A stretch of 35,014 nucleotides of DNA. Origin: Gemmatimonadota bacterium. GTDB lineage: Bacteria > Gemmatimonadota > Gemmatimonadetes > Gemmatimonadales > Gemmatimonadaceae. Positions 5,448 to 30,880 of the stretch are shown here, one piece after another. A model generated the notes under the pieces. It had not been told where the DNA came from. It ran no database searches and saw only the letters and a list, made by a program, of their open reading frames with translations. The stretch covers positions 1 to 35,014 of the forward strand of contig VHBO01000017.1 in the NCBI GenBank assembly GCA_016871895.1, given 5' to 3'. Made by a program: the position numbers and the translations under genes. The number at the start of each line of letters is the position of its first letter. Within the stretch, counting starts at the first letter, position 1.

Positions 5448-6251
5448 GTGATCGCCCCGGGCCCCGCCCTCCTCGTCTTCGCGCTCCTCCTGCTCGGTGC
5501 TGCCGGCATCGCGTGGCCCGTGCACGGCCTCGCCGCCCGCTTCCGACGGGCCCGGCGGGACGCGCGGCGCATCGGCGTCGAAGACACGCTCAAATACCTG
5601 TACCACCGCGAGGCCGAAGGGTTGGCCGTCCACGCCGATGCAATCGCGGGAGCGCTCGGCGTCCGACCGACCGCGGCGCGCGACCTCCTCGAGCGGCTCG
5701 GCGCCGCCGGACTCGTCACCTCAGCCGGCGTGACGCACGCGCTCACCGACCGCGGGCGCCAAGAGGCGCTGCGCGTCGTGCGCACCCACCGCCTGCTCGA
5801 GCAATACCTCGCAGACCGCACCGGCGTCGCCCCCGACGAGTGGCACACGTTCGCCGAGGACGCGGAGCACGACCTCACGCCGGAGGAGGCCGAGGCGCTC
5901 GCCGCGCGGCTCGGCCAGCCGCGATTCGATCCCCACGGGGAGCCCATCCCCACGGCCGATGGCACGCTCCCGGTCACGGCAATCCGCCCCGACGGCCCAC
6001 CGCCGGAGCGCACCCTCGCCGACGCCGCGCCCGGCGAGACGGTGCGCGTGCGGCGTCTCACCGGGGAGTGTCGCGGCCCGCAGCGTCGCCGGCTCCTCGA
6101 CCTCGGGGTGGTTCCCGGCACCACGATCACCGCCGAGCTCTCGAGCCCAGGCGGCGACCCCGTCGCGTACCGCATCCGCGGCGCGCTCATCGCGCTCCGC
6201 CGGCAACAGGCGGCCTGGATCGAGATCGACGGACCCGGGCGGGCCGCGTGA
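5448..6251 (+). CDS. Membrane-anchored DtxR/MntR-type metal regulator with C-terminal FeoA domain
   Basis: A 267-aa protein. Residues 5-25 are a hydrophobic helix followed by a strongly basic stretch (RFRRARRDARR), so the rest should face the cytoplasm. Residues about 45-105 are a winged helix-turn-helix of the DtxR/MntR kind (AIAGALGVRPTAARDLLERL). Residues 105-165 are the metal-binding and dimerisation region, with likely ligands H114, E118, E137, E140 and H141 and the family signature DPHGEPIP. Residues about 187-262 are an SH3-like FeoA domain (LLDLGVVPGTTI). It starts at GTG and overlaps the feoB start by 4 bp (GTGA), so the two are translationally coupled. No separate feoA exists in the operon, so this domain may also serve as FeoA for the transporter. 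The membrane anchor is unusual for this family. Confidence 0.88.
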   Translation: MIAPGPALLVFALLLLGAAGIAWPVHGLAARFRRARRDARRIGVEDTLKYLYHREAEGLAVHADAIAGALGVRPTAARDLLERLGAAGLVTSAGVTHALTDRGRQEALRVVRTHRLLEQYLADRTGVAPDEWHTFAEDAEHDLTPEEAEALAARLGQPRFDPHGEPIPTADGTLPVTAIRPDGPPPERTLADAAPGETVRVRRLTGECRGPQRRRLLDLGVVPGTTITAELSSPGGDPVAYRIRGALIALRRQQAAWIEIDGPGRAA

Positions 6252-8395
6252 CGCCGACGACCTCGATGCGCACGCGCCTCCCGGCGCGCGACGAGTCCTT
6301 CATCCAGCTCGGCGTCCGGTCCGACGGCTTCGATCATCTCGTCGCGCTCGCGGGGAATCCGAACACCGGCAAGAGCACCGTCTTCAACGCGCTCACGGGG
6401 CTGCGGCAACACACGGGGAACTGGCCCGGCAAGACGGTCACCCGCGCGGAGGGCCGCTTCACCGTCGGCGGGGACCGCTGCAAGGTGGTCGACCTCCCCG
6501 GCACCTACTCGCTGCAGGCGGCGAGCACGGATGAAGAGGTCGCGCGGGACTTCCTGCTCTTCGGCGCCCCCGCTGTGACGGTGCTCGTGCTCGACGCGAC
6601 GGCGCTCGAGCGCAATCTCAACCTCGCGCTGCAGGTGCTGGAGATCACGCCGACGGTCGTCGTCTGTCTCAACCTGATGGACGAGGCGCGACGCCGCGGC
6701 ATCGCCGTCGATCCGGAGGCGCTGGCCTCGGTGCTCGGCGTGCCCGTGGTGCCGGCGGCGGCACGCGGCGGCGAGGGGGTCGAGGCGCTGCGCGCGATGA
6801 TCCGGCAGGTGGCGCGCGGCGAGGTGGTCCCGCGTCCGACGCCCCCCGCCCCGTTCGCGCCGGCGGTGGAGGCGCTCGTCCGCGAGGCCGCCGATGCGGT
6901 GCGCGCGGCGGAGCCCGCGCGACCGAACGCGCGCTGGATCGCGCTCCGCCTCCTTGATGGCGACGAGCGGGTGGCGGCGACGATGCCCTCGGACCTCGTG
7001 GATGCGATCGATGCGATCCGCTGGCGGCTCCCCGCCGACTTCCACGACCAGCTCGCCGCCGGCCGGTTCGCGCTCGCCGAGCGCATCGCCCGGGCCGCGC
7101 GCCCGACGGCGGTGGCGACCCTCGGCGCCGCCCTCGACCAGCGGCTCGATCGGTGGCTCACGAGCCCCGCGACCGGCCTCCCGCTGATGGTCGCGATGCT
7201 CGCCGTCGTCTTCTGGCTGACGATCGCCGGCGCGAACGTGCCCTCGGCGATGCTCGCGGACCTGCTGGTCGACCGCGGACACGCCTGGCTCGGGACGATG
7301 GCGACGGCGCTCCACGCCCCCGACTGGCTACGTGGGCTCCTCGTCGACGGCGTCTATCTCGCGACCGCGTGGGTCGTCTCGGTGATGCTGCCGCCGATGG
7401 CGATCTTCTTTCCGCTCTTCACCCTGCTCGAGGACCTCGGCTATCTCCCGCGCGTCGCGTTCAACCTCGACGCCGCCTTCCGCCGCGTCGGAGCGCACGG
7501 GAAGCAGGCGCTCACGATGTGTATGGGGTTCGGCTGCAACGCGGCGGGGGTGGTCGCCACGCGGATCATCGACAGCCCGCGCGAGCGGCTCGTCGCGATC
7601 ATCACGAACAACTTCTCGCTCTGCAACGGCCGCTGGCCGACGCAGATCCTGATGGCGTCGCTCTTCGTCGGCGTCCTCGCGCCGCCGGCCCTCGCCGGCG
7701 TCGTCTCCGCCGCGGCGGTCGTCGGTGTGACGCTGCTCGGCGTCGCGACGATGTTCCTCGCCTCCTGGGCGCTGACGCGCACCGTCCTGCGCGGGGAGGC
7801 GACGAGCTTCAGCCTCGAACTCCCGCCGTATCGTCCGCCGCGCCTCTGGCAGACGCTCTACACCTCGGTGATCGACCGGACGCTGATCGTGCTCTGGCGC
7901 GCGATCGTCTTCGCGGCGCCCGCGGGGGCGGCGATCTGGTTGCTCTCGAACGTGCCCATCGCGGGGGAGCCGGTCGCAGTGCATCTGATTCGCGGCCTCG
8001 AGCCGGCGGGCCTGCTCCTCGGTCTGAACGGCGTGATCCTCCTCGCGTATGTGGTGGCGATCCCGGCGAACGAGATCGTCGTGCCGACGGTGCTGATGCT
8101 GACCGTGCTCACGGGGGGCGCCCCCGAGGCGGGCGCGGGGGCCGGCGTGCTCTTCGAACTCGATCCGGCGGCCGTTGGGACGCTCCTCCGCGCCGACGGC
8201 TGGACGACGCTCACGGGCGTGAACCTGATGCTCTTCAGCTTGCTGCATAATCCTTGCTCCACAACGATCCACACGATCTGGAAGGAGACGGGGAGCGGGC
8301 GCTGGACGGCGGTCGCGACGCTGCTCCCGGTGGGGCTCGGGCTCACGGTCTGCTTCCTCGTCACGCAGGTGGTCCGGCTCCTCACCGGGAGCTGA
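6248..8395 (+). CDS. feoB: Ferrous iron transport protein B
   Basis: A 715-aa inner-membrane Fe(II) transporter. The N-terminal G domain has the P-loop GNPNTGKST (from G36), the G3 motif DLPG with the following TYSL, and NLMD as G4. A linker of about 100 residues follows, then a membrane domain from about residue 310 with two Gate-like regions: LPRVAF/CMGFGCNAAG in the first half and the corresponding NPCSTTIHTI segment near the end. The conserved cysteines of the family are present (CMGFGC, NNFSLCNGRWPTQ, HNPCSTT). The GTG start overlaps the stop of the regulator gene; an ATG 18 nt further in (6266) is an alternative. Operon of two genes, no feoC, and FeoA present only as a domain of the regulator. 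Expression is probably iron-repressed through the upstream palindrome. Confidence 0.95.
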   Translation: MTPTTSMRTRLPARDESFIQLGVRSDGFDHLVALAGNPNTGKSTVFNALTGLRQHTGNWPGKTVTRAEGRFTVGGDRCKVVDLPGTYSLQAASTDEEVARDFLLFGAPAVTVLVLDATALERNLNLALQVLEITPTVVVCLNLMDEARRRGIAVDPEALASVLGVPVVPAAARGGEGVEALRAMIRQVARGEVVPRPTPPAPFAPAVEALVREAADAVRAAEPARPNARWIALRLLDGDERVAATMPSDLVDAIDAIRWRLPADFHDQLAAGRFALAERIARAARPTAVATLGAALDQRLDRWLTSPATGLPLMVAMLAVVFWLTIAGANVPSAMLADLLVDRGHAWLGTMATALHAPDWLRGLLVDGVYLATAWVVSVMLPPMAIFFPLFTLLEDLGYLPRVAFNLDAAFRRVGAHGKQALTMCMGFGCNAAGVVATRIIDSPRERLVAIITNNFSLCNGRWPTQILMASLFVGVLAPPALAGVVSAAAVVGVTLLGVATMFLASWALTRTVLRGEATSFSLELPPYRPPRLWQTLYTSVIDRTLIVLWRAIVFAAPAGAAIWLLSNVPIAGEPVAVHLIRGLEPAGLLLGLNGVILLAYVVAIPANEIVVPTVLMLTVLTGGAPEAGAGAGVLFELDPAAVGTLLRADGWTTLTGVNLMLFSLLHNPCSTTIHTIWKETGSGRWTAVATLLPVGLGLTVCFLVTQVVRLLTGS

Positions 8396-17677: not shown

Positions 17678-19750
17678 TCAGAACGTCACCTGCCACGTGG
17701 CGAGGATCGTCGCGGGCGCCACCGGGAACAGATAGCGCGTGGCCCCGTCGGTGTACCCGGCCGCGTAGGCCGTGGCGGAGAGCAGGTTCTGCCCCTGCAC
17801 CCGCAGCTGCTGCCGTCCGACGGGGATTGTGACGCCACCGTCGAGCACCGTGAAGGCGGGGATGGTCAACGCCGCATTCCCGTCATTCGCGAGGAACGCG
17901 CGCCCCACGTGACGGGCGCCGAGGGTCAGCGACCGTCCGCCGCGTCCCTCCCACGACGCCTGCAGGTTTGCGGTCACCGCGGGAGTGAGGAGCGGCGGCA
18001 CATCGCGGTATGTCACCCCCGCCCCCTCGTCCTCGTACTCGGCGATGCGCGCGCGCATCCAGACGACGTTCCCATCGACGCGCCACGCCGTGACGGGCCG
18101 CCAACTCCCCTCGAGCTCGACCCCCGCGCGCGTCGAGCGCGGCACGTTCCGACGCAGCGGGCTCCCCGTGATGGCGAGCGCCCCGATCGCGGCAATCTCA
18201 TCGCGGAATCGCATCGAGAAGAGATTCACCGCAACGGCACCGCGCGCGCCGGCCCGGCGCATCCCGATCTCGACATCGGTGACCTGCTCGGGCCGCACCC
18301 GCGTGAGCGGCAGGACCTCGGCGGCGGTCGCGGCGTCGAGATCGTCCGCGCCGGCGAAGAGATCCACGCGCGTCGGCTCACGAGACGCGCGCCCCACCGA
18401 GGCGTGGAGACTCCGACCGCCCCCCAGCTGCCACGTGCCGCCGAGCTTGGGATTCGCGAAGCGCCAGGTGACCTCCGGCGAGCCGATCGCGACGCCCGCA
18501 CTCGGCGCGTACCGGAAGGTCGCCTGGCGCAGCTGAAGGTCGGCGACCCACTCGAGCGCGCCACGGCGACCCACGGCCTTGGCGAAGGCACTCTGCTCCG
18601 ACTTGTGACCAGTGTTCGCGTACACGTCGGTGGTGAGGACGGGGCGGATGCGCAGGCTGTGCTCGCGCGCGTAGTCGCTCGCGTGGCCACCCACCGACCA
18701 GGCGACCGGGCCGGTGGTCCACGTGGCGGTCGAGAGGAGACCGACCCAGGTGTGGTCGAGCCCGAAGTTCCAGAGATCGTCACCCACGGCGACGTCATAC
18801 GTCCCCGCCGCCGCGTTGCGGTACAGCGTCGTCGTCACGGCACCCGAACGTCCGAGGGTGCGCGTATGCTGGAGGCTCAGCATCGACTGCGAGAAGTCAT
18901 CGCGCTCGTCCGGCGACATCGGGTTGGTGCGCCGGTCGGCGGCGAGGTCGGCCTCGCTGGCCGCGTAGTAGGCGAGCTGCATCCGCGAGCGGCCCGCGAA
19001 GCCAGTGACCTTCACCACATCCCGGTCGCCGAACCACGCTGCGCTCCCGAACGCGGAGCGCGCATCATTCCCCGAGTGGAGGCGATAGCCATCCGTCGTC
19101 TGCGCGGTGGCACGACCATACGCCGCGACGGACCCACGCACCCCACTCGCCGCACCGACGCTCACCCGCCGGGTCCCCCAGCTCCCCGCGGTCACCTCGG
19201 CCTCGCGGAAGGCTGGCGTGGTCGCGAGCGGCAATGATTCGAAGCTCAGCGCCCCGGCGAACCCAGCCGGCCCGAATCCGCTCCCCCCGACGCCGCGCTG
19301 GACGCGCACCGAGCTCATCGAGTGCAGGACGTCAGGGACGTTCGAGAAGTAGAGGACCTGGTCTTCGGGATCATTGAGCGGGACTCCGTCGACGGAGATC
19401 GCGAGTCGCGTCTGGTCGATGCCGCGGAGTCGGAGCGAGCTATAGCCGCTGAATGCCCCCGCGTCCGACGCCGCGGTGACGCCGGTCGCGCCGAGGAGCG
19501 CGAGGGGCGCGTCCTGTCCGACGTAGGTGCGCGCGATGGTGGCACGGTCGATCAGGGTCTGGGAGGTCGGCGGCGCGGCACCGACGCGGGTCGCGCGCAC
19601 GACGACGGCGTCGAGGGTGTCGCGTCGGGCCACGGCGGCGCGACTGGTATCTCGAACGGTCTCCTGCGCGGCGAGGGGGGAGGCGAGAGGCGCCACGAGT
19701 GTCGCGGCGATCGTGGCGGCGAGCGGGACAACGCGCAGGACGGACATCAT
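17678..19750 (-). CDS. TonB-dependent receptor, probable thiamin-type transporter
   Basis: An outer-membrane receptor of about 690 aa. A signal peptide (VVPLAATIAATLVAPLASPLAAQ) is followed by a plug domain (about residues 45-160: SSLRLRGIDQTRLAISVDGVPLNDP, VRVQRGVGGSGFGPAGFAGAL) and a 22-strand barrel ending in TWQVTF with the terminal aromatic residue needed for assembly. The substrate assignment rests on the TPP riboswitch in its leader, so thiamin, a thiamin phosphate or a pyrimidine/thiazole precursor is the probable cargo. Three ATGs compete (19759, 19750, 19747). GGAG lies 6 nt before the last and 3 nt before the middle one. It is a single gene; the matching inner-membrane carrier is not in the window. 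Confidence 0.9.
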   Translation of the reverse strand: MMSVLRVVPLAATIAATLVAPLASPLAAQETVRDTSRAAVARRDTLDAVVVRATRVGAAPPTSQTLIDRATIARTYVGQDAPLALLGATGVTAASDAGAFSGYSSLRLRGIDQTRLAISVDGVPLNDPEDQVLYFSNVPDVLHSMSSVRVQRGVGGSGFGPAGFAGALSFESLPLATTPAFREAEVTAGSWGTRRVSVGAASGVRGSVAAYGRATAQTTDGYRLHSGNDARSAFGSAAWFGDRDVVKVTGFAGRSRMQLAYYAASEADLAADRRTNPMSPDERDDFSQSMLSLQHTRTLGRSGAVTTTLYRNAAAGTYDVAVGDDLWNFGLDHTWVGLLSTATWTTGPVAWSVGGHASDYAREHSLRIRPVLTTDVYANTGHKSEQSAFAKAVGRRGALEWVADLQLRQATFRYAPSAGVAIGSPEVTWRFANPKLGGTWQLGGGRSLHASVGRASREPTRVDLFAGADDLDAATAAEVLPLTRVRPEQVTDVEIGMRRAGARGAVAVNLFSMRFRDEIAAIGALAITGSPLRRNVPRSTRAGVELEGSWRPVTAWRVDGNVVWMRARIAEYEDEGAGVTYRDVPPLLTPAVTANLQASWEGRGGRSLTLGARHVGRAFLANDGNAALTIPAFTVLDGGVTIPVGRQQLRVQGQNLLSATAYAAGYTDGATRYLFPVAPATILATWQVTF

Positions 19751-19788
19751 TCGCTCCATCGGGTCGGCCGGGGCGCACGCGCTCGCGG

Positions 19789-19865
19789 TCGACCGTGGGT
19801 GGGAGGGCGATGCGCGACGGAATGCACGCGCGCGACGGCCACGGTCGATGCCGGACTCATCGCCC
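19789..19865 (-). promoter_or_regulatory. Mutually exclusive inverted repeats in the riboswitch leader
   Basis: Two perfect inverted repeats lie between the TPP aptamer and the receptor start. One pairs 19789-19798 with 19839-19848 (10 bp, TCGACCGTGG/CCACGGTCGA). The other pairs 19805-19812 with 19858-19865 (8 bp, GGGCGATG/CATCGCCC). The arms interleave, so the RNA helices compete or form a pseudoknot. No T-run follows, so control would be translational or Rho-dependent rather than by an intrinsic terminator. Function is inferred. Confidence 0.5.
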
Positions 19866-19868
19866 ACC

Positions 19869-19953
19869 GCGCTCCCTCCGCCGGCATTACCCGGGTCAGG
19901 TTCCAAGGGACTGTCTCAACCCCGCGACGCGGAGTACCCCTGGCGGTCAGCGC
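19869..19953 (-). ncRNA. TPP riboswitch (THI element)
   Basis: Read on the minus strand this is a complete thiamin pyrophosphate aptamer. P1 pairs GCGCU (19949-19953) with AGCGC (19869-19873). P2 pairs CAGGGG with CCCUUG. P3 is a GC-rich hairpin. The conserved elements follow in order: UUGAGA (usually CUGAGA), ACCUGA, GGGUAAUGCCGG forming P5, and GCGGAGGGA closing the aptamer. About 120 nt separate it from the TonB receptor start. High TPP should lower receptor expression. Confidence 0.93.
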
Positions 19954-20075: not shown

Positions 20076-20657
20076 ATGACGATCACCCGCCGTGCACTCC
20101 TGCAGTTGGCCGGCCTCTCCCTCCTCCCGGCACTCGCCCAAGCCGACGATGCCGCCTTCGACGCCTGGGCCGAGAAGATCCACGCCGCGACGCGGCAACC
20201 CCGTGGCACGAGCCTCACCGCCGACGAGCGCGCGACGGTCGCCGCGATGGTCGATGGGATCCTGCCGCGCACCGACACCCCCGGGGCGCTCGACGTCGGC
20301 GTCCCCGCCTTCATCGACGTGATCGTCGCGGACTGGATGACGGCGGCCGAGCGCGACGAGTTCCGCGCGGGGCTCGCCGCGCTCGATGCGCGCGCTCGCG
20401 CCGCCTACGGACTCCGCTGGTCCGCGCTCGATCCGGTGCAGCGCGACGGCGAACTCGCCTGGGCCGAGCGCCCGGTGGACGCCGCGCACGTCGCCAAGAA
20501 GGCGTACCGTCGCCTCAAGGGCCTCGCCCTGCACGGCTATCTCACCAGCGAGCGCGTGCGGAAGGAGGTGCTCAAGGTGAACATCACCCCCGGGCACTTC
20601 CGCGGCGCGGTCCCCATCACCGCGGCGCCGTCGGCGGGAGGGCACGCCCATGCGTGA
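20076..20657 (+). CDS. Gluconate 2-dehydrogenase subunit 3-family protein (small subunit)
   Basis: A 193-aa small subunit of a periplasmic FAD-dependent sugar/polyol dehydrogenase. It begins with a Tat signal (TRRALLQLAG), and in this family it carries the large GMC subunit across the membrane as a hitch-hiker. The family body is seen from about residue 45 (LTADERATVAAMVDGILPRTDTPGALDVGVPAF) to the C-terminal GHFRGAVPIT, with WMTAAERDEFRAGLAALD in between. It overlaps the GMC gene by 8 bp, so translation is coupled. Confidence 0.9.
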   Translation: MTITRRALLQLAGLSLLPALAQADDAAFDAWAEKIHAATRQPRGTSLTADERATVAAMVDGILPRTDTPGALDVGVPAFIDVIVADWMTAAERDEFRAGLAALDARARAAYGLRWSALDPVQRDGELAWAERPVDAAHVAKKAYRRLKGLALHGYLTSERVRKEVLKVNITPGHFRGAVPITAAPSAGGHAHA

Positions 20658-22374
20658 CGGCCTCCCCACCCTCCTCGGCGCGAACGCGCAGCGCGGCCGC
20701 ACCTTCGACGCCATCGTCGTCGGCTCCGGCATCAGCGGCGGCTGGGCCGCGAAGGAACTCACCGAACGCGGGCTCCGCACCCTGGTCCTCGAAGCGGGCG
20801 GCCCGATCGACCCCGCCCGTGACTACGTGGAGCACGTCCAGCCGTACCAGATGCGCTTCCGCGGCTACGGCGACCGCACCGCCCTCGAGCGCGACCAGCC
20901 GGTGCAGCGCGAGTGCTACGCCTGCGACGAGTGGGGCTCAAAGTTCTTCGTGAACGATCGCGAGAACCCGTACACCACGCCGGACGACGCCCCCTTCCGC
21001 TGGATCCGCGGCCGGCACGTCGGCGGTCGCTCGATCATGTGGGGACGTCAGGTGTATCGGTGGAGCGACCTCGACTTCGAGGCGAACCTGAAGGACGGCC
21101 ACGGGTGCGACTGGCCCATTCGCTACGCCGACCTCGCCCCGTGGTATTCGCACGTGGAGCGGTTCATCGGTGTCTCCGGACAGCCCGAGGGGCTCGCGCA
21201 GCTTCCCGACGGCGAGTTCCTCCCGCCGATGGAGATGACGGTCGCCGAACGGCACGTCCGCGAGAAGGTGCTGAAGGCCTTCAACGGCGAGCGAGTCTGG
21301 ACGATTGGACGCGCGGCGATCCTCACCAAAGATCACAACGGACGCGCCGCCTGCCACTACTGCGGCCCGTGCGAGCGCGGCTGCATCACGCACTCGTACT
21401 TCTCAAGCAACGGATCGACCCTGCCGGCCGCCGAGCGCACCGGCCGGCTCACCTTGCGGCCGTGGAGCGTCGTCAGCGAGGTGGTGCTCGACCCGCGGAC
21501 CGGTCGAGCCAAGGGGGTGCGGGTCATCGACGCACGCACGCAGCAGGAGATGGTCTACGAGGCGCGCGTCGTCTTCCTCTGTGCCTCCGCCTTCGAGTCG
21601 GTCCGCATCCTGATGCATTCCACGAGCGCCGCACATCCGAACGGGATGGGGAACGGGAGCGGGACGCTCGGCAAGTACATCATGGACCACCATATGCTCC
21701 ACGGCGCCGGCGGCATCATCCCGGGCTTCGAGGACTTCAAGACCGAGGGGAGCCGCCCGAACGGGATGTATGTCGCGCGCTTCCGTAACACGAACGGATC
21801 CGCGGCGAGCCGCGACTTCCTCCGCGGCTACGGGATGCAGGGGGGCGCCGGGGGACGTGGGCGCTGGTCCGGGCCCGGCTACGGCGCCGACTGGAAGCAA
21901 AAGGTCCTCACGCAACTCGGCCCCTGGGGCGTGGGCATCAACGGCTGGGGCGAGATGCTCCCCAACGCCGAGAACCATCTCGCGCTCGACGCGAACGTGA
22001 AGGACAAGTGGGGGATCCCCGCGCTCCGCATCACCGCCCGTTGGGGCGAGAACGAGCGCGCGATGATGCAGGATATGGTCACCTCGGCGACCGAGATGCT
22101 CGAAGCCGCCGGCGCGACCAACATCTACCAGAACCGTCCCGACGTCCCCCCGGGGCTCTGCATCCACGAGATGGGGGGCGCGCGGATGGGGCGCTCCGCC
22201 GACGTCTCCGTCTGCGATGGGAACAACGCGCTCTGGGAGGTCCCGAACGTGATGGTCACCGACGGCGCCTGTATGGCGAGCTCGGCGTGCCAGAACCCGA
22301 GCATCACCTATATGGCACTCACCGCCCGCGCCGTCGCGGGCACGGTCGAACGCCTGAACCGAGGTGAATTGTGA
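20650..22374 (+). CDS. GMC-family FAD-dependent sugar dehydrogenase (large subunit)
   Basis: A 574-aa catalytic subunit. The Rossmann FAD motif is VVGSGISGG near residue 25, followed by LVLEAGG. The GMC substrate domain ends with CIHEMGGARMG and the C-terminal CQNPSITYMALTARA that supplies the catalytic His/Asn pair. A cysteine cluster C235-H-Y-C238-G-P-C241-E-R-G-C245 lies where relatives such as bacterial FAD glucose dehydrogenase bind a [3Fe-4S] cluster. There is no signal peptide, so export relies on the Tat signal of the small subunit. Likely oxidises a sugar, sugar derivative or polyol, possibly at C3 of a glucoside; the substrate is not established. No cytochrome c subunit is encoded next to it. 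Confidence 0.9.
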   Translation: MRDGLPTLLGANAQRGRTFDAIVVGSGISGGWAAKELTERGLRTLVLEAGGPIDPARDYVEHVQPYQMRFRGYGDRTALERDQPVQRECYACDEWGSKFFVNDRENPYTTPDDAPFRWIRGRHVGGRSIMWGRQVYRWSDLDFEANLKDGHGCDWPIRYADLAPWYSHVERFIGVSGQPEGLAQLPDGEFLPPMEMTVAERHVREKVLKAFNGERVWTIGRAAILTKDHNGRAACHYCGPCERGCITHSYFSSNGSTLPAAERTGRLTLRPWSVVSEVVLDPRTGRAKGVRVIDARTQQEMVYEARVVFLCASAFESVRILMHSTSAAHPNGMGNGSGTLGKYIMDHHMLHGAGGIIPGFEDFKTEGSRPNGMYVARFRNTNGSAASRDFLRGYGMQGGAGGRGRWSGPGYGADWKQKVLTQLGPWGVGINGWGEMLPNAENHLALDANVKDKWGIPALRITARWGENERAMMQDMVTSATEMLEAAGATNIYQNRPDVPPGLCIHEMGGARMGRSADVSVCDGNNALWEVPNVMVTDGACMASSACQNPSITYMALTARAVAGTVERLNRGEL

Positions 22375-29542: not shown

Positions 29543-30880
29543 TCAACGGCCCACGAGGGTGCCCGCGCGGCGCGCGATGAGTGTGGGGCGCGGCGCTTCG
29601 AAGGGATCATCACGCGTCGCGGTGTCGGCGGTGGAGGCAATCCACTCTCGCCAGAGCGCGACGATGCCGTCGCCGTCCTCGACCGCGAAGTGCGCGCGCT
29701 GCTCCCGATAGCGGTGCATGACCACAGCCGCAGCGGCTTCGAGTGCGCTATCGGCCGCGGAAGGCGCAGCGCCCAGCGGCACCGCGTACACGAATGACGA
29801 CAGCGTCGGCGGCTCGCCTTCGCGGGCGGGGAACTTGCGGAAGGTTTCGATGCGTCGGAAGTCGCGGCGCACGAAGGTGCCCGTGCGCACTTGGGATTCG
29901 CCGGCCTCGACGAAAAAGTCCACCGCGGCGTCGGGATAGCCGAAAAGATGTCCGAAGCCGCGCCAGCGTGCGGCACGCGGGGCCGTCTCGACTGCGGACA
30001 GCACGCGCGCTGCGTCGGCGCCGTCCGTCATACCAAGTTGCTGCCAGAAAGCTGCGTGCTGCGTGAGGGTGCGCTGCAGACCGTCGCGATGGACGAGGAA
30101 CACGGACGCGACGCGGTAGCGCGAGCTGTCGGGCCGCGTGTAGGTGGCTGCGTACTCGAGCACGTGCGCGATGACGGGCCCGCAGCGGAGCGCACCGGCG
30201 ACGCGGCGGATGGTCGCGAGCGAATCGAGCGCGACGCTATCCACGGTCGGCGCGACGGTCCACGTGACCGTCAGGAAGTCCGAGCTGACCGGCTTGAGGC
30301 CACCGGCGAGTGTGTACAGCCCCTCGCCGTCGCTGGCCGCACGCAGCATAGCCACGGCGATCGCGCGATCGCGCGCCGGCAGTTGCTCAATGGCAAAGCA
30401 GGACTCGCGAGCCGCGCTATTCTGCGCCGGCAATGCGGACGGCGATGCGAGGGCAGCGAGCAGCACAAGCCCAACGCGCAGCGACGCGCGGCGCAGCATC
30501 TGGATGTTGACGAGATGGGCGAGCACGAGGACCGCGGCTGCCGCGCCGACCGCGAGGCGCTCGGTCTCCTCGGCGAGCTCCGGCCCGAGGCGCGTCACCA
30601 GCAGGCCGACGACTCCGGCCATCAGCAGCGGCAGTGCGCCAGAGCGGCGATGCCAACGCCACCCACTGACGATGGCCGCCGAGCTCGTGATGAGCGAGAC
30701 GACGACCAATGCCCACTCGACCCCCGGATGCTCGATCCATTCAAGGGCGAGCAGGGGTGCCGCGGCCACCAGGAGTGGTCCCGCCATACAATGAAGGGCG
30801 CACACCACCGCGACCACGATGCCCGAGGCATCGCCGGCGCTGCGGCGGATCGGACGGACGAGCAGACCGGATGCTGGCAT
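29543..30880 (-). CDS. MerC-type membrane domain fused to an exported uncharacterised domain
   Basis: A 445-aa protein. Residues about 15-132 are a MerC-like four-helix membrane domain with the CALHC cysteine motif (C27, C31) used by MerC to bind Hg(II) or other soft metals. Residues 128-153 form a second hydrophobic segment that looks like a signal peptide (MLRRASLRVGLVLLAALASPSALPAQ). About 290 soluble residues follow, with ESCFAIEQLPARDRAIAVAMLRAA, EGLYTLAGGLKPVSSDF and a C-terminal MHRYREQRAHF segment; I do not recognise this domain. The fusion is in one uninterrupted frame. Minus-strand TAGCCT lies 6 nt before the ATG, which fits leaderless transcription. It is divergent from the sensor kinase. 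Confidence 0.78.
   Translation of the reverse strand: MPASGLLVRPIRRSAGDASGIVVAVVCALHCMAGPLLVAAAPLLALEWIEHPGVEWALVVVSLITSSAAIVSGWRWHRRSGALPLLMAGVVGLLVTRLGPELAEETERLAVGAAAAVLVLAHLVNIQMLRRASLRVGLVLLAALASPSALPAQNSAARESCFAIEQLPARDRAIAVAMLRAASDGEGLYTLAGGLKPVSSDFLTVTWTVAPTVDSVALDSLATIRRVAGALRCGPVIAHVLEYAATYTRPDSSRYRVASVFLVHRDGLQRTLTQHAAFWQQLGMTDGADAARVLSAVETAPRAARWRGFGHLFGYPDAAVDFFVEAGESQVRTGTFVRRDFRRIETFRKFPAREGEPPTLSSFVYAVPLGAAPSAADSALEAAAAVVMHRYREQRAHFAVEDGDGIVALWREWIASTADTATRDDPFEAPRPTLIARRAGTLVGR

Follow-up and report, generated by a model that had tools for sequence, protein, structure and literature searches.

A thiamin pyrophosphate (TPP) aptamer lying directly ahead of a gene for an outer-membrane receptor raises the question of what this receptor brings into the cell and how the cell then uses it. 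We analysed a 35,014-nucleotide stretch of DNA carrying such an arrangement (the window, contig VHBO01000017.1), which belongs to a Gemmatimonas-like draft MAG of 2.28 Mb in 129 contigs, 96% complete (hereafter G000). Among named records, the closest are Gemmatimonadota MAGs from freshwater and other sources, some of them named Gemmatimonas phototrophica, together with Roseisolibacter sp. H3M3-2; every title that names a group among the best 80 loci of the relatives scan points to Gemmatimonadota. Elsewhere, the window contains a divergent operon unrelated to thiamin (20076–22374, forward strand), encoding a gluconate 2-dehydrogenase subunit 3-like protein and a GMC oxidoreductase, a FeoB-like protein encoded by a single 960-aa ORF (5513–8395, forward strand) in which approximately 270 residues precede the G domain, possibly owing to a fusion or to a start placed too far upstream, and a 445-aa ORF (29543–30880, reverse strand) with an N-terminal MerC-like domain.

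The initial annotation had recognized a full TPP aptamer ahead of the receptor and proposed an Rfam scan to verify it. The covariance model indeed identified a complete TPP riboswitch aptamer (THI element, RF00059) at positions 19855–19951 of the reverse strand, with a score of 62.8 bits for a gathering score of 54.3, covering model positions 1–105 of 105. The optional P3a arm is missing, which is ordinary for TPP aptamers. The genome (2.28 Mb) contains no other RF00059 match, and this one has an E-value of 5e-12. Exactly one TPP match is likewise present in each of the 13 genomes sampled from the same genus, and each of the 17 same-genus leaders read contains the aptamer core ACCTGA no more than 420 nt ahead of the receptor. 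These regularities exclude a chance pairing of aptamer and receptor and confirm that the arrangement is real.

The receptor gene (17678–19759, reverse strand, stop included) encodes 690 residues and begins about 100–105 nt downstream of the aptamer. The TTG at 19906 proposed in the ORF list was rejected as a start, since this position falls inside the aptamer; the true start is likely ATG 19750 or 19747, in a GGAG-CGAATG-ATG context where a Shine-Dalgarno-like GGAG (19754–19757, reverse strand), read from the sequence, stands 6 nt ahead of ATG 19747. The protein is a TonB-dependent receptor, with a signal peptide read at its N-terminus, a Plug domain (19250–19570, reverse strand; PF07715, 35.5 bits) and a large TonB-dependent beta-barrel (17783–19141, reverse strand; PF00593, TonB_dep_Rec_b-barrel, 88.2 bits). 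The AlphaFold (AF2) model obtained with 53 orthologues is a plugged barrel (pLDDT 86.4), for which the best solved fold is that of PqqU (9c4o, TM 0.80). Alignment of 53 orthologues places the motif TLDAVVVRA (residues 48–56; 19592–19618, reverse strand) within a conserved segment of consensus RDxLExVVVRA, and this motif is likely the TonB box.

The rest of a thiamin pathway, which the initial annotation had described as absent from the window, is in fact missing from the whole genome. Family searches detected neither ThiC, ThiD nor ThiG in G000, and no ThiE above the cut-off in G000 or its genus, the best match in G000 (19.6 bits) lying below it. Thiamin pyrophosphokinase (TPK, PF04263) was found in none of the 179 Gemmatimonadaceae genomes of our family sample, G000 included, with control genomes positive. 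ThiL is present (G000:C6:79736-80593; 219 bits for a cut-off of 184). With this gene content G000 looks like a thiamin auxotroph; at 96% completeness any single absence could be an artefact, and the absence of ThiC and ThiE also holds across the genus.

The gene content bears on the substrate, for which the initial annotation had proposed thiamin or a precursor. Uptake of a precursor (HMP or thiazole) to be finished inside the cell would have parallels, as TPP riboswitches also control genes for precursor uptake; a ThiE-family protein also scores above the cut-off in 21 of the 118 receptor-bearing genomes of the family, and a few relatives carry thiMED under a second TPP riboswitch. In G000 itself, without ThiD, ThiG and ThiE, neither precursor could be used, and we rejected precursor import, which we consider very improbable. 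Since ThiC, ThiD, ThiE and ThiG are all missing, the substrate would be thiamin, possibly also its phosphates, so that the first half of the original proposal is supported and the second is not. The presence of ThiL implies a thiamin monophosphate (TMP) intermediate, and imported thiamin would need to be phosphorylated.

The distribution of the receptor across the family points in the same direction. Among the 179 genomes, 118 encode the receptor and 48 encode ThiC: 114 have the receptor only, 44 have ThiC only, 4 have both and 17 have neither (Fisher p 4e-23, a value that ignores relatedness). In the subset of 105 good genomes, the corresponding numbers are 75, 23, 4 and 3. The two genes are thus almost mutually exclusive in the family. 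Receptor-only and thiC-only species coexist within each of four genera (g5, g6, g20 and g21), which implies four or more changes of state, provided that these genera are monophyletic. Regulation follows the same partition: among the 76 TPP matches listed for the family (the best-scoring ones), 46 sit 23–335 nt ahead of the receptor, 22 are ahead of thiC and 8 are ahead of other genes, including thiMED and, in the genome G254, a pair of genes encoding a permease and a kinase that is discussed below.

Some aptamers of the survey precede other targets. In loci L041 and L056 (genomes G068 and G019, both with the receptor and without thiC), a second TPP riboswitch is located ahead of thiE-thiD, with thiM also seen in G068; these genes may provide HMP/thiazole salvage beside thiamin import. 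In L069 (G013), an aptamer of 67.9 bits, from approximately position 1501, directly precedes a zinc-type alcohol dehydrogenase gene, an odd target, and in L075 (G006), from another family of the phylum, the aptamer is ahead of a TENA/THI-4 family gene.

An unbiased tblastn search with the receptor against 7.3 Gb of plasmids gave only three matches, all in Bacteroidota. In the Bacteroides finegoldii plasmid, the gene order is TPP aptamer, receptor, pnuC and thiamine diphosphokinase, and the receptor is 24–25% identical to that of the window over most of the protein. This homologue, in a Bacteroides operon of the TPP-OMthi-pnuT-TPK type, agrees with the earlier remark that riboswitch-controlled receptors of this kind are known from Bacteroidetes-type genomes. 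The two Persicobacter matches present the order pnuT, AAA_28 kinase and receptor, with a TPP aptamer ahead of the receptor in one of them. One could still argue that the window protein takes up siderophores or heme and that its riboswitch is a relic or a chance neighbour, as PhuR is its best sequence match in the PDB and generic siderophore and heme models match it weakly, far below their cut-offs. This is scarcely credible for a receptor that keeps the aptamer ahead of it across the family, takes the place of thiC in both presence and regulation, and has its best plasmid matches in thiamin operons. The window protein is therefore best described as an OMthi-like receptor and very probably functions as a TPP-controlled importer with thiamin as its predicted ligand; together with its riboswitch, it adds a new member to the OMthi-type importers.

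How would thiamin, once in the periplasm, reach the cytoplasm and become TPP? G000 encodes a single PnuC/PnuT permease (G000:C2:134564-135097), at a locus separate from the window and without a riboswitch, directly followed by a NadR-like AAA_28 (PF13521) kinase (G000:C2:134055-134552). Both in G000 (L160) and in G254 (L036/L173), the pnuT and kinase genes abut or overlap each other, and in G254 the pair has its own TPP riboswitch (71.2 bits). The permease is present in 112 of the 118 receptor genomes, at most 20 kb from the receptor in 50 of them, and the kinase in 109 of these 118 genomes versus 10 of the 48 thiC genomes. The kinase lies no more than 300 nt from the permease in 102 genomes and no more than 1.5 kb from the receptor in 41; in three of the latter, the permease is elsewhere. 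In G016, G113 and G368, the TPP aptamer, receptor, permease and kinase form one run. In two genomes of genus g14, pnuT, kinase and receptor form a run in which no TPP aptamer is detectable, and another regulator has possibly replaced the riboswitch there. A long inverted repeat is located just ahead of this run in G048 (L161, 4305–4398); the microRNA-like Rfam matches near the g14 operon were discarded, as they merely reflect the inverted repeat.

The kinase (175 aa) consists of the AAA_28 kinase domain only and does not have the combination of NMNAT and ribosylnicotinamide kinase domains that defines NadR. All 23 distinct kinases in the alignment retain Walker A, a DT motif and a conserved arginine, and the enzyme looks active. 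The title of Jaehme et al. (2018), as cited in PMC7749635, presents PnuT as facilitating the diffusion of thiamin, and a trapping kinase is accordingly to be expected. Since TPK is encoded by no genome of the family, the simplest reading is that the AAA_28 kinase phosphorylates thiamin. A further module was found via the permease on a Sphingomonas plasmid (L263), with the order TPP aptamer, TonB receptor, APH phosphotransferase and pnuC; in a Novosphingobium plasmid (L264), the spacing between TPP aptamer and pnuC equals that of L263. The main argument for thiamin as the kinase substrate is that three different kinase families fill the corresponding place in similar modules. We consider it reasonably probable that the AAA_28 kinase converts thiamin to TMP, which ThiL would then convert to TPP.

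Annotation pipelines now label the pnuT-kinase pair as nicotinamide riboside transport and salvage. If this label were right, only the receptor would serve thiamin uptake and another permease and kinase would perform the remaining steps. The NCBIfam model names the permease PnuC nicotinamide riboside transporter (88 bits, over the PnuC cut-off), an automatic model calls the kinase NadR-like, the closest solved relatives of the latter are NadR proteins, and in G000 the pair, unlinked to a riboswitch, could serve NAD salvage. The WxxWxxxD/N motif, tried as a means to separate PnuT from PnuC, gave no discrimination, as nearly all members carry D, those of thiC genomes included. Several observations speak against nicotinamide riboside salvage. 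In G254 the pair is preceded by a TPP riboswitch of its own, and in G016, G113 and G368 it belongs to a single run with the TPP aptamer and receptor. Its distribution tracks the receptor and avoids thiC, its kinase stands where the Bacteroides operon has thiamin pyrophosphokinase, and ThiL is kept while TPK is found in none of the 179 genomes. We thus regard nicotinamide riboside salvage as unlikely, although not negligible, and favour the thiamin assignment. By extension, the stand-alone NadR-like AAA_28 family may well be an unrecognized thiamin kinase that, with ThiL, replaces TPK in TPP-riboswitch uptake modules of Gemmatimonadota and some Bacteroidota, a generalization we put forward a little more cautiously. 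We found no paper in the open-access literature that assigns a NadR-like or PF13521 kinase to thiamin, and the module with this putative thiamin kinase and ThiL in the place of TPK appears to be new.

The switching itself was approached through the leaders. Among the 32 receptor leaders that are 60 nt or longer, 22 contain a strong hairpin followed by a T-rich stretch 3′ of the aptamer, compared with 15 of 160 shuffles. The 5′ arm of this terminator can pair with the 3′ flank of the aptamer, with duplex energies of −18 to −28 kcal/mol, figures that come without a shuffle baseline; this predicted pairing fits, as expected, terminator/antiterminator switching in the relatives. No intrinsic terminator was found in the leaders of the window and of its nearest relative (G290), while other same-genus relatives have one. 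Folding of the expression platform of the window (19751–19854, reverse strand, from the aptamer to the start codon) suggests an alternative structure in which the 3′ half of the aptamer pairs with CGCAUCGCCCUCCCACC. In both the window and G290, the leader contains the motif CCCUCC, for which the aptamer and the GGAG are possible alternative pairing partners. With the aptamer enforced in the window leader, the ribosome-binding region is predicted to become marginally less accessible (0.51 to 0.45), and we do not claim translation control on this basis. By analogy with its riboswitch class, TPP binding would turn the receptor gene off.

On the directly observed grounds of aptamer, receptor fold and family, gene presences and absences, linkage and co-occurrence, we propose that the locus would act as the outer-membrane entry gate for thiamin salvage in a B1-auxotrophic member of the Gemmatimonadaceae. 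At low cytoplasmic TPP, the leader RNA would, as it is transcribed, permit expression of the receptor gene, and thiamin would then enter the periplasm through the receptor, powered by TonB. The PnuT/PnuC-family permease would carry thiamin, its presumed substrate, across the inner membrane, the NadR-like AAA_28 kinase would trap it as TMP, and ThiL would convert TMP to TPP, whose binding to the aptamer would close the loop by switching the receptor gene off.

This scheme suggests that, as B1 auxotrophy comes and goes among relatives, the same riboswitch can be placed in charge of de novo synthesis (thiC) or of outer-membrane import. The gene located under the TPP switch could thus be a readable marker of auxotrophy for uncultured Gemmatimonadota, whose cultivators should add thiamin. 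Homology and genomic context extend the TonB thiamin importer past Bacteroidetes-type genomes, and they point to a missing step, namely which enzyme phosphorylates salvaged thiamin to TMP when a cell has ThiL and lacks both TPK and ThiE.

Compared with known systems, the window aptamer resembles the RF00059 TPP riboswitch in being complete and above the gathering score; it differs by the absence of the P3a arm and, in its leader, of the terminator platform present in many relatives. The closest solved fold of the receptor, PqqU/YncD of Escherichia coli (TM 0.80), is likewise a TonB receptor whose ligand is a small organic cofactor (PQQ), but the window receptor is only 16% identical to it and its predicted ligand differs. 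The permease and kinase belong to the same families as those of PnuC-NadR nicotinamide riboside salvage, whereas the kinase here is stand-alone, without an NMNAT domain, and the context is that of thiamin (TPP riboswitch, receptor and ThiL). The Sphingomonas L263 run combines the same parts (TPP aptamer, receptor, permease and kinase), but its receptor is distantly related to that of the window and its kinase is of the APH fold. In Bacteroides thetaiotaomicron, OMthi and pnuT deletion mutants without biosynthesis require more thiamin (PMC5613172). The OMthi (BT2390)-PnuT-Tnr3 system of Bacteroides and the system described here share a TPP aptamer directly ahead of a TonB receptor, a PnuT-type permease and a dedicated kinase, with homology established via the similarly arranged B. 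finegoldii receptor rather than via BT2390. In contrast to Bacteroides, the Gemmatimonadaceae have no TPK and instead possess the NadR-like AAA_28 kinase while keeping ThiL, the permease and kinase of G000 are encoded at another locus without a riboswitch, and the receptor appears to replace de novo synthesis instead of supplementing it.
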